Notes under the pieces: model-generated
The model's database searches: none
The model's input: the letters and a program-made list of their open reading frames with translations, nothing else
Told to the model about the DNA's origin: nothing
IMG/VR virus record: IMGVR_UViG_3300012351_000029
Span: 1-22,354 of that record
DNA: 22,354 bases
Reading direction: 5' to 3' (one strand)
Source: a virus
In this document: piece after piece, positions 3,109 to 19,098 of the stretch
Numbering within the stretch: the stretch's first letter is position 1
How the letters are laid out: each line of letters opens with the position of its first letter
Position numbers and translations under genes: made by a program

Positions 3109-3819
3109 TTATAAGTGTAGTTCGTCAGGGAAGCGGGCTTTGTAGCCTTTATGACTCATCTTGCTCCCCTTAGCAACATGCATGAGATTGGAACGATCAA
3201 GATGATGCTCTTTGCAGAATTGCCTGATACCATAAATCGTTTGCTCAGTCCCATCAGGCGCGGTAACGATAAGGGCTTTCGTGTTGGTTCTCCCCAGCCT
3301 CATTTTCTCAAGAGTTTCAGGCGAGGCTTTCTTACCAAGCCTGGACTGTCTGACTTTCTCACGATGTTCAGGGGTGTGCTTCCTGCCAAGCCCGATGGTG
3401 CTGAGCAATTTGCAGGTTTCAGGCGAGGCTTTCTTGCCGGTATGGTTGGTATTGCCACGCCGGGCGGCGCTCAATTTCTCACGGGTAGCGGGCGAGGCTT
3501 TCATGCCCAAGCAAGAGCCAGCAACGCGGGCAATATTAAAGCCGCGCTTCCCAAAGGGCTTGTATCGATCAAGCCAGTATTGTTCACGCGCGGTCAGGGA
3601 CATGGGAAGAACAAGTTCGATCACTTCAAAGGTGAATGCATCAGGGCCATACTTGTTGAAAGCATGTTGCAGTATCAGATTGCCGTGCTGGTTTCGCCGA
3701 AGCTCGCTAAAATGGCTTGTTTTGCGTTTGCGCAAGTTGACGGCGCTTCCAATGTAGAACTTGCCATTGATCGTGTTGGTAATGCGGTAGATACCCGACG
3801 TGTTGGGTATAGAGGTCAC
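3109..3819 (-). CDS. GIY-YIG homing endonuclease with NUMOD3 repeats
   Basis: A 236-residue free-standing homing endonuclease that would cut a specific DNA site and spread its own gene by recombination. The GIY-YIG domain spans residues about 7-95: SGIYRI and FYIGSA motifs, an Arg-rich NLRKR helix, and the acidic LTAREQYWLDRY segment that should carry the metal-binding Glu. Four NUMOD3-like DNA-binding repeats follow (G-K/R-K-A/H-S/T-P-x-x-x-x-K at residues about 105-185). The C-terminus has a helix-turn-helix-like IYGIRQFCKEHHLDRSNL. GTG 3819 is preceded by AAAGGAG at good spacing, held in the loop of a CTAAC/GTTAG hairpin. It lies antisense between two late genes with its own promoter and structured leader, so it need not be read with the late operon. 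Confidence 0.9.
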   Translation of the reverse strand: MTSIPNTSGIYRITNTINGKFYIGSAVNLRKRKTSHFSELRRNQHGNLILQHAFNKYGPDAFTFEVIELVLPMSLTAREQYWLDRYKPFGKRGFNIARVAGSCLGMKASPATREKLSAARRGNTNHTGKKASPETCKLLSTIGLGRKHTPEHREKVRQSRLGKKASPETLEKMRLGRTNTKALIVTAPDGTEQTIYGIRQFCKEHHLDRSNLMHVAKGSKMSHKGYKARFPDELHL

Positions 3820-13110: not shown

Positions 13111-13128
13111 AGGAGGTCTCATTATAGC
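13109..13128 (+). repeat. Imperfect direct repeat with SD and ATA, left copy
   Basis: AAAGGAGGT, then seven bases, then ATAGC. A matching copy at 13938-13957 reads AAAGAGAGGT then TATAGC at nearly the same spacing. The HNH gene and its promoter lie between. The copies include a ribosome binding site and a possible ATA start, so the endonuclease seems to have entered at, or duplicated, a translation start region. Confidence 0.6.
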
Positions 13129-13811
13129 AACCGACCGCCACGATGCCATTCATGCGGGAGCTTTGCGCCCTTTCTCAGATTGCATGTGGGGCAAGCTATC
13201 ACGATATTGGAGATATCATTCGTTCCGCCTTTTGAGAGCGGAACGATGTGGTCAGGATGCCACACCTTGCTCAGTTTCGCCTTGCAATAATAACAATGCG
13301 ACTTCTGGCGTTTCAATTGTTCCTGCAATTGTCGTGGGGTATGAGAACCTTGTGAGGCTAGTTTTTGCGCTTTTCGCCTATGCTTGTGTACCTTACTTGC
13401 CAGGCGCCCTTGTTCAGTCTTGCCGTATTGTCGCGAGCGTTCTTGTAGCACTTCTTGCCGTAACAGGTAACGCTTGTGATTCTGTCTATGTATCTCTTCC
13501 TGGTGCTCTTGCTGATAGTGCTTCTGATAGACTTTATATCTTTCGCCTTGCTGCCACTGCCTTAAACGTGCGGCTGTCTCCTCTTTATGAGCGTCACGAT
13601 AGAGCCTTTTGTTTTCGCGCACCTGTTCCTTGTGAGTCTCTTGATACGCTTTACACCTGGCTTTACCGCATACTTTGCATGTTGTGTGCAACCCGTCTTT
13701 CTTGCTTCTATCTCTGTCGAAAAACTCAGGAGTGGCAGGATACGAGTGTGGGCATGTGGAGCATTGCTTTTGTGGGATATCAGAGGAGTCCATGTCTAAA
13801 TTGCCTTTCAT
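13122..13811 (-). CDS. HNH homing endonuclease (free-standing)
   Basis: A 229-residue endonuclease. The N-terminus has a treble-clef-like zinc ribbon (CSTC ... CKVCGKARC, residues 17-50). The middle is a long Arg/Gln/Glu/His helix (residues 50-160). The C-terminal HNH domain carries CYYC, then PDHIVPLSKGGTND, then NIVIACPTCNLRKG, giving the paired zinc cysteines and the His and Asn of the HNH active site (residues about 172-218). It is antisense between the large tail gene and an intron-split gene, with its own promoter and structured leader. ATG 13811 has a weak AAGG upstream. Its closeness to a group I intron that encodes no protein suggests it may move that intron (inference). Confidence 0.88.
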   Translation of the reverse strand: MKGNLDMDSSDIPQKQCSTCPHSYPATPEFFDRDRSKKDGLHTTCKVCGKARCKAYQETHKEQVRENKRLYRDAHKEETAARLRQWQQGERYKVYQKHYQQEHQEEIHRQNHKRYLLRQEVLQERSRQYGKTEQGRLASKVHKHRRKAQKLASQGSHTPRQLQEQLKRQKSHCYYCKAKLSKVWHPDHIVPLSKGGTNDISNIVIACPTCNLRKGAKLPHEWHRGGRLL

Positions 13812-16990: not shown

Positions 16991-17019
16991 TTTATAAGGA
17001 GTATACCATGCAACAACAA
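16991..17019 (-). promoter_or_regulatory. Putative promoter of the antisense gene at 16967
   Basis: Minus-strand TTGTTG (17019-17014), a 17-base spacer and TATAAA (16996-16991). It overlaps the start of the rightward gene at 17008, so transcription from the two could interfere. Confidence 0.45.
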
Positions 17020-17427
17020 CCAACCAATCTCTATACCGAGATCGGCATCATCCTGGTCTCCATCGGGTTGATCGGCGGCGGCGTGCTGCTGCTCGTCTTA
17101 GGCAAGATCGCCTTTGCCGATGGGGCGCTGATGTTCACGCTGGCTATCGGCCTGTACGGCGTCAATACCGCTTTGAAAGCCCCGTCTCAGGCACAACAGG
17201 CGCAAATCGGCGCGATCACACAGCAAGCCCTGAATGTGCTGCCCCAGGTTGTGCAGGCTGCCGCAAGTACGCCCGTGTCAGTGCCACCGCAAGCGCAGCC
17301 CATGCCGGTACAGCAACAGGCACCGCCGGTGTATCAGGGGGCGCCGTCCGTTTCGTCGCTTGAAACCATGCCGGTGCTGCCAGCAATGCCGCAGTTCAGC
17401 GCACCATTACAGGCCGTGCAGAGGTGA
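17008..17427 (+). CDS. Small membrane protein with Pro/Gln tail
   Basis: A 139-residue protein with two N-terminal hydrophobic segments (IGIILVSIGLIGGGVLLLVL; ALMFTLAIGLYGV). A Gln/Ala helix and a Pro/Gln/Val-rich tail follow, ending SAPLQAVQR. ATAAGGAGTATACC precedes the ATG. Topology and position next to the lysis genes allow a second holin or a lysis modulator, but this is not proven. Its last ten codons have a diverged inverted copy at 17505-17538, inside the CRISPR array next to it, that encodes the same residues with only synonymous changes (see findings). Confidence 0.6.
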   Translation: MQQQPTNLYTEIGIILVSIGLIGGGVLLLVLGKIAFADGALMFTLAIGLYGVNTALKAPSQAQQAQIGAITQQALNVLPQVVQAAASTPVSVPPQAQPMPVQQQAPPVYQGAPSVSSLETMPVLPAMPQFSAPLQAVQR

Positions 17428-17442
17428 GCCTGACAACTAAAG

Positions 17443-17493
17443 CACGACGCGAACCTCGTGCTCACTTATTCAGCAAGGGAGGTTCGCGTCGTG
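17443..17493. repeat. 15-bp perfect inverted repeat after the membrane protein gene
   Basis: CACGACGCGAACCTC (17443-17457) and its exact complement (17479-17493) enclose a 21-base loop. There is no T-run on either strand, so a simple intrinsic terminator is doubtful, though a bidirectional structured end between the membrane protein gene and the leftward array is possible. Its centre, 17468, is also the centre between the gene end (17398) and the spacer that copies it (ending 17538). Confidence 0.7.
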
Positions 17494-17496
17494 TGT

Positions 17497-17717
17497 GTTG
17501 CAATAAGACTAGCGCTGTACGGCCTGTAGCGGTGCGCTGTTTCAATCCTCAACGACCCCGAAAGGTCGTTGCAATGCACAAGCGACGACTTGAGCCTGTT
17601 CACATCGTTGTTTCAATCCTCAACGACCCCGAAAGGTCGTTGCAATGGGGTGCTGAAGTGCACTTCGGTGAAGCGGCGGTGTTTCAATCCTCAACGACCT
17701 TTCGGGGCCGTTGCAAT
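17497..17717 (-). CRISPR. Cas-less mini-CRISPR array: 3 full repeats, 1 truncated, 3 spacers
   Basis: Three 37-nt repeats lie at 17539-17575, 17610-17646 and 17681-17717, separated by 34-nt spacers at 17576-17609 and 17647-17680. A fourth repeat survives only as its 8 terminal bases (17497-17504), exactly 34 nt from repeat 1, giving a third spacer at 17505-17538. Read on the minus strand the repeat begins ATTGCAAC, has an inverted-repeat centre (CAACGACC/GGTCGTTG) and ends GGATTGAAAC. ATTGAAAC is a well-known 5' handle of crRNAs, so leftward transcription is likely. Repeat 3 has its loop in the opposite orientation. No cas gene is nearby, so host Cas proteins would be needed. No convincing leader promoter was seen. 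Confidence 0.88.
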
Positions 17718-17763
17718 GGTACAGAGTGTACCACATAACACTTCTTTCTGAGTGCTCAGAAAG
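17717..17763. other. Two perfect hairpins between CRISPR array and next gene
   Basis: TGGTACA-GAG-TGTACCA (17717-17733) abuts the last repeat, and CTTTCTGAG/CTCAGAAAG (17744-17752 with 17755-17763) follows. Neither has a T-run. They occupy the place of a leader for a leftward array and could also shield the array from the fibre-gene signals to the right. No function is shown. Confidence 0.5.
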
Positions 17764-17772
17764 CGGAATCTA

Positions 17773-17799: not shown

Positions 17800-18240
17800 A
17801 TGGCTGGACTCACCACACAAGCCCAGAACAACATCCTCAATCTCATGAAGGGCACCACCTGGCCCACCACAGGCGCGTGGGGCGCGGCTCCGGCCACTAC
17901 CTACGTCGGCTTGTTTACGACGGCGCCGACCACCGATGCCAGCGCCAGCTACACGGGAACGGAGGTATCGGGCGGCGCCTATGCACGCGTCGCCGTGACC
18001 TCCTCTACCGGCTGGTCGGCCATCACCGGCGGCTCAACGGCGCCCTCACAAATATCGAATGCGGGCGTGATTACGTTCCCTACGCCCACCGTCTCCTGGG
18101 GCACCGTCCTGGCGGTGGGCATTTTCGACGCGGCCACGACGGGTAATTTGCTGTGGTTTAACACCATCACCTCGCAGGCCATCGGAATTGGGGTTGTAGC
18201 GTCGTTCGCCATAGGCGCACTGGTGCTAACTGTCGATTGA
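17800..18240 (+). CDS. Tail-fibre-like / minor virion protein
   Basis: A 146-residue protein starting MAGLTTQAQNNILNLMKGTT. The pattern TYVGLFTTAPTTDASASYTG, TEVSGGAYARVAVT, VSWGTVLAVGIFDAATTGNL, LLWFNTI is that of a small beta-domain protein widespread in phage tail-fibre regions. I choose ATG 17800 since the upstream in-frame ATG 17752 falls inside a hairpin and lacks a binding site. It is the third gene behind the conserved hairpin-plus-AAGGAG element, suggesting high expression like the capsid and tail tube. A strong promoter for the next gene begins at its stop. Confidence 0.65.
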   Translation: MAGLTTQAQNNILNLMKGTTWPTTGAWGAAPATTYVGLFTTAPTTDASASYTGTEVSGGAYARVAVTSSTGWSAITGGSTAPSQISNAGVITFPTPTVSWGTVLAVGIFDAATTGNLLWFNTITSQAIGIGVVASFAIGALVLTVD

Positions 18241-18306: not shown

Positions 18307-19098
18307 ATGAACAAGAGAAGTTTCACCCAAGAACAGAGAGAAGACATTGTAAAGCGGTATCAAGCAGGCGAGTCACTCGCTCAGATCGGGAGATCATATG
18401 GAACAAAGTACGAAACGATAGGGAAGTACCTCAAAGAGTGGGGTATACCCATCCAAACGTATATCAAACGGAAAGTGACCCCTGCTCAGGAAATCACCAT
18501 TTGCAATCGGTATGCCAATGGAGAAAGTCCTAAACTCCTAGCTGAAGAGTTTGGGATGCATGTCTTCACCATAAGAAATATTGTCGAAGCGAATGGTGGA
18601 GAAATCAACCCTAAAGGCCAGCAATACCGGCGCTTTACTGTCGAGGAACTTGAGACAATGAGGCACATGCGCGATCAAGGGGATAGTCAGAATGCTATTG
18701 CAGTAGCACTTGGTACCAGTCAAATCACCGTGAGTCGTGTTATGAGGGAAAATGGGATAGTGCCTAACCATGTTGGACATCTCTCTGGTGAGAAACATGG
18801 GTCATGGAACGGGGGGGCGCATATGAACGGTGAGTATAGGGAGATATGGCTCGACCCTTCAGACCCTATGGCATCTATGGGAAATCGTCAAGGATACATA
18901 ATGGAGCATCGCTTAGTGCTTGCAAGAAAGCTCGGAAGACCATTGAAAAGCCATGAGACTGTTCACCATATCAACGGTGATAAGTTGGACAATCGCCCTG
19001 AGAACCTACAGGTACGGCAGGGGAGACATGGCACTGGTACGGTCTATTGCTGTGCTGATTGTGGTTCACGAAACATTGTACAGTGTGAGATAGAGTAG
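18307..19098 (+). CDS. HNH homing endonuclease with helix-turn-helix domains
   Basis: A 263-residue protein. Three successive helix-turn-helix units are visible: residues about 5-45 (QREDIVKRYQAGESLAQIGR), 50-95 (NRYANGESPKLLAEEFGMHV) and 105-150 (MRDQGDSQNAIAVALGTSQI). The HNH nuclease follows at about 175-245, with GYIMEHRLVLARKLGRPL, then ETVHHINGDKLDNRPENL: the HH-N-G-D-x-x-D-N-R-x-x-N-L signature of the HNH_3 type. A C-terminal zinc-ribbon-like YCCADCGSRN ends the protein. I choose ATG 18307, after AGGAGATAGG, over the in-frame ATG 18283. Its A+T-rich, moderate-codon style differs from neighbouring genes. It separates two fibre-type genes and starts the next one after a single base. Confidence 0.9.
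   Translation: MNKRSFTQEQREDIVKRYQAGESLAQIGRSYGTKYETIGKYLKEWGIPIQTYIKRKVTPAQEITICNRYANGESPKLLAEEFGMHVFTIRNIVEANGGEINPKGQQYRRFTVEELETMRHMRDQGDSQNAIAVALGTSQITVSRVMRENGIVPNHVGHLSGEKHGSWNGGAHMNGEYREIWLDPSDPMASMGNRQGYIMEHRLVLARKLGRPLKSHETVHHINGDKLDNRPENLQVRQGRHGTGTVYCCADCGSRNIVQCEIE

Follow-up and report, generated by a model that had tools for sequence, protein, structure and literature searches.

The mini-arrays of the Saccharolobus viruses SPV1 and SPV2, which carry one or two spacers, target nearby loci in related viruses (Medvedeva et al. 2019, PMC6858448), and the closeness of array and target was left unexplained by these authors. The phage and prophage mini-arrays of Faure et al. 2019, as cited in PMC6858448, are said to be leaderless, and some of their spacers are reported there to target adjacent genes in close relatives, not in the carrier; phage mini-arrays with spacers against adjacent genes in relatives are documented (PMC6858448, PMC11656645). 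RNA anti-CRISPRs (Racrs) are likewise phage-borne repeats without cas genes, but they are solitary units that mimic CRISPR repeats; type I-C examples exist, one of them proven (PMC10651486).

We find a CRISPR mini-array in IMGVR_UViG_3300012351_000029, a virus record of 22,354 bases that was analysed over its entire length (the window). The record is a genome fragment of a tailed, soil-type phage with scaffold, major capsid, tape measure, lysin, and fiber-type genes. The array is probably a new example of a known phage weapon, an attack on close competitors. As in SPV1 and SPV2 (PMC6858448), cas genes are absent, the array is intergenic, a spacer matches a closely related virus, the carrier's own locus differs, and the target lies near the array. 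In contrast to SPV1 and SPV2, the carrier is a bacterial tailed phage, the repeat is of type I-C, there are three spacers, and the relative matches at 28/34 positions rather than at 100%; reciprocal targeting was not found, as no spacer of the relative's own array matches the window. The pattern cited for the Faure et al. 2019 arrays, a spacer against an adjacent gene of relatives, recurs here with another host and another repeat type, and from the Racrs the locus is set apart by a regular array and a matching spacer. Few virus mini-arrays have a target that can be traced, and the window adds to them a bacterial type I-C case from phages of a phylum that has been little studied.

The array is located among late genes, between a small membrane protein gene, for which PHROG and Pfam searches matched no family, and the gene at 17800-18240. 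It consists of three full 37-nt repeats with a constant start-to-start period of 71, a truncated fourth repeat, and three spacers (S2, S1, and S0) of 34 nt each (Table 1). The hairpin is retained in all repeats, including R1, in which the top of the stem-loop is inverted; the sense of the R1 loop is shared by Thermus I-C repeats. A further hairpin, formed by a 15-bp inverted repeat (17443-17457/17479-17493), follows the leader-distal end and probably terminates the array transcript or forms its end structure. The putative leader holds two perfect, operator-like palindromes (17718-17732 and 17745-17762) adjoining the first repeat, and no sigma-70-like promoter was recognized in it. No cas operon was detected among the proteins of this 22-kb fragment that were tested. 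One GIY-YIG and two HNH genes, which resemble free-standing homing endonucleases, are dispersed through the late genes of the window, and the weak Cas9 matches of the HNH gene at 13125-13811 come from its HNH domain.

Table 1. Coordinates of the array, its surroundings, and other genes discussed in the text
Feature	Position	Strand	Remarks
GIY-YIG gene	3112-3819	-	resembles free-standing homing endonuclease
HNH gene	13125-13811	-	resembles free-standing homing endonuclease
Small membrane protein gene	17008-17427	+	139 aa; orthologue 75% identical in sister phage (L001/L004)
TTC next to self-match	17395-17397	+	position of type I-C PAM; same TTC in sister phage
Self-match to S0	17398-17431	+	25/34; seed positions 1-8 all paired
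Whole inserted cassette	17432-17765		missing from orthologous intergenic region of sister phage
Hairpin	17443-17493		15-bp perfect stem, 21-nt loop; leader-distal end of array; -34.4 kcal/mol, z -7.3
Truncated fourth repeat, ATTGCAAC	17497-17504	-	leader-distal; 8/8 bases agree, beyond that none
Spacer S0	17505-17538	-	34 nt; copied from the end of the neighboring gene's orthologue
Repeat R3, ATTGCAACGACCTTTCGGGGTCGTTGAGGATTGAAAC	17539-17575	-	
Spacer S1	17576-17609	-	target not found
Repeat R2	17610-17646	-	identical to R3
Spacer S2	17647-17680	-	target not found
Repeat R1	17681-17717	-	leader-proximal; top of stem-loop inverted (GGCCCCGAAAGGTC) relative to R2/R3; hairpin retained
Probable leader	17718-17766	-	from repeat orientation
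Next gene beyond the array	17800-18240		
HNH gene	18307-19098	+	resembles free-standing homing endonuclease

The canonical sense of the repeat is the minus strand, ending in GAGGATTGAAAC. It shows the features of type I-C repeats: it ends in GGATTGAAAC, preceded by a GC stem, and it belongs to a family that includes repeats beside cas5c-cas8c-cas7c. On a ktedonobacterial contig (L071), repeats identical at 30/37 positions adjoin genes for Cas7/Csd2, Cas8c/Csd1, Cas5c, and Cas3 (csd2, csd1, cas5c, and cas3), and the same repeat family (27-30/37) is found beside a full I-C operon on the Thermus thermophilus plasmid pTHTHE1601. The L071 cas genes run in the canonical repeat sense and lead into the array. 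The crRNA of the phage array is therefore expected to come from the minus strand, with the leader at 17718-17766 and S0 as the oldest spacer. In this orientation the S0 crRNA has the sense of the neighboring gene, and a TTC is found where the I-C PAM belongs, which is TTC (PMC7913775). The TTC precedes the matching sites of both the carrier and the related phage, which lends weak support to a I-C assignment, given that a single spacer is concerned and that the F codon is conserved.

The exact repeat is absent from the species genomes (genome_contigs) and from the other viral contigs (viral_contigs) searched; of four genome matches, three are due to chance and the other is a solitary repeat in Thermosporothrix. 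This repeat (Thermosporothrix hazakensis, L043:765-803) is 31/37 identical to that of the phage and has no surrounding array in the stretch read. The nearest cellular repeats agree at 30-31/37 positions. Another contig with arrays, L076, has no cas genes among the open reading frames of the 19 kb read. The C-terminal part of the phage lysin matches 13 of 400 Chloroflexota genomes, all from the Ktedonobacteria group (G001-G047), and related repeats are also found within this group. Both findings support, but fall short of proving, a ktedonobacterium (Chloroflexota) as the probable host. Host-array spacers from three genomes (G007, G008, and G036) gave no convincing match to the phages (best 25/33), and no convincing prophage copies of the membrane protein were found in Ktedonobacteria.

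Reverse-complemented, S0 reads AGCGCACCGCTACAGGCCGTACAGCGCTAGTCTT, and the end of the neighboring gene reads AGCGCACCATTACAGGCCGTGCAGAGGTGAGCCT. The two agree at 25/34 positions, as the initial annotation had noted from the letters, and its coordinates are correct; the mismatches are at 9, 10, 21, 25, 27, 29, 30, 31, and 33. Among 300 shuffles of S0, none matched any site of the window at more than 23/34 positions. Both sequences translate to SAPLQAVQR-stop, and the seven differences in 30 bases (ten codons) are all synonymous (P = 5e-6 under random substitution), which bears out the earlier reading of a shared peptide with silent changes only; the TTC claimed to precede the site is also in place. 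The gap between the self-match and the S0 end of the array is 73 bp. Type I effectors leave every sixth position unpaired, a rule that comes from a I-E study (PMC12871591); counted in this way, the carrier's own site has eight mismatches at read positions, and 21/29 read positions agree.

We searched for the source of S0 in 2.9 million viral contigs (viral_contigs) using a codon-degenerate pattern. The scan returned one related phage (the sister phage), represented by two contigs that are 99.9% identical, L001 and L002/L004 (L004 is IMGVR_UViG_3300012199_000003); a further hit, L003, is an unrelated chance match to the pattern. The sister orthologue matches S0 at 28/34 positions compared with 25/34 in the carrier, the match includes the TCTT after the stop codon, and TTC again precedes it. 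Of its six mismatches, three (6, 18, and 30) are at every-sixth positions, which are not read, and three (9, 10, and 21) are at read positions, such that 26/29 read positions agree. The differences between S0 and the sister are all synonymous (P 6.5e-5), as are the four changes private to S0 (P 0.0026). S0 therefore has the history of a coding sequence from another lineage, and, judged from these alignments, it stems from an unsampled third lineage of the neighboring gene. Since the spacer keeps the codon register, synonymous changes reveal where it came from. The initial annotation had regarded its proposal of a foreign origin as refuted should no phage match S0 better than the carrier itself; the sister phage does so, although the stricter expectation of a relative matching at 33-34/34 failed, with no protospacer closer than 28/34 found by the codon-degenerate pattern in the 2.9 million contigs. 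We could not detect targets of S1 and S2 in the related phage records compared, either as DNA or as six-frame peptides, or in viral_contigs, using two collection scans whose patterns allowed any base at unread positions.

Comparison of the window with the sister phage revealed that their homology reaches position 17421 (5671 in L004) and restarts at 17766 (5690 in L004), with about 340 intervening bases in the window versus about 18 in the sister. The array is therefore an insertion in the lineage of the window or, less simply, was lost in the sister. The insert itself gave no match in the phage collection. The sister has an array of its own in a different intergenic region (L004:7989-8388), with six repeats, the outer ones degenerate; its repeat (GTTTCAATCTCAGATGAGAAGGATGAAGTGCTGCAAC) agrees with that of the window at 20/37 positions and is unrelated. 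Arrays thus recur in this phage group.

The initial annotation cautioned that the S0 copy shares its center of symmetry with the 15-bp inverted repeat, and we find that both indeed lie on exactly one axis, 17468. The segment 17468-17539 could accordingly have arisen long ago by inverted duplication of the gene end together with its flank, the likeness to a spacer being a by-product. We estimate, however, that a 51-nt hairpin could be placed at about 23 positions within the 73-nt gap. The shared axis would then arise by chance about once in 23 cases, and this coincidence is easier to accept than a 34-nt homology that falls by chance exactly between repeats. The homology stops at the spacer-repeat junction, and only 1/11 bases agree between there and the hairpin arm; at its other end, where the annotation had placed the start of the match, it also stops at the junction, with one additional base in agreement. 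S0 moreover has the 34-nt length of the other two spacers and is adjoined by 8/8 repeat bases, and four private changes that are all synonymous are unlikely in a non-coding copy. The sister locus, where a repeat-free inverted arrangement would have spoken for duplication, contains neither an array nor an inverted copy. We regard an inverted duplication as highly improbable.

The repeats could also act as RNA anti-CRISPR decoys that tie up the I-C Cas proteins of the host, with incidental spacer content. The mimicry of repeats by Racr units, the altered loop of R1, and solitary I-C-like repeats in five other viral contigs are in line with this, but Racrs are solitary, whereas here three regular repeats with full-length spacers are present, and one spacer has a meaningful target adjoining the correct PAM, which makes a decoy function very unlikely. 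TTC and a paired seed, with the first mismatch at position 9, would also suit an S0 crRNA that represses late genes, in the manner of crRNA-like repressors, by binding to the end of the carrier's own gene but leaving it uncut. This site is, however, the 3' end of a gene rather than a promoter, the sister matches S0 better than the carrier does, and the synonymous differences suit a foreign origin; such self-regulation appears to us the most improbable of these explanations. The array could also be decayed or a passenger, taken up from a host chromosome through recombination and not expressed; this would account for the unrecognized promoter, the degenerate last repeat, the repeats that are not all identical, and the failure to find an exact target. 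On the other hand, R2 and R3 are identical, every hairpin is retained, and an array with a different repeat is present at another place in the sister, which argues for recurrence in the group; we consider decay unlikely.

Taken together, the locus is probably a cas-less mini-array of the type I-C family, by which a tailed phage uses the I-C Cas proteins of its host against relatives. A pre-crRNA would be made from the minus strand and cut by the host Cas5d, and the crRNA, predicted to carry S0 after a 5' handle that ends in AUUGAAAC, would be loaded into the host I-C complex. S0 would then guide Cas3 to relatives carrying the orthologue and exclude them from the shared host. The carrier would be spared, or bound weakly, because of the eight mismatches at read positions in its own gene end; some self-binding is possible, as TTC and a perfect 8-base seed are present.

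Our case repeats the unexplained rule of near-self targeting, and it is conceivable, if rather improbable, that the array acts as an RNA-guided counterpart to intronless homing. It would cut the array-less allele of relatives, and in a mixed infection, repair from the carrier would then bring into the competitor both the array and the adjacent gene end, which is recoded and not cut. Of the six differences private to the carrier, five lie in the last 10 of the 34 bases (Fisher P 0.005), and the position of these recoded bases next to the array fits the homing reading. If true, this reading would account for the tendency of virus mini-arrays to target sequences in their own vicinity, and it is testable by ordinary phage crosses. 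A targeted literature search found no paper proposing this reading of mini-arrays.

The solitary I-C-like repeats mentioned above (L112:5210, L113:10694, L114:1225, L115:3957, and L116:4350) share the same sequence (GTTTCAATCCTCACCGGCCTGGTGGCCGGCCAGAGCG) in a conserved context and represent a candidate RNA anti-CRISPR.
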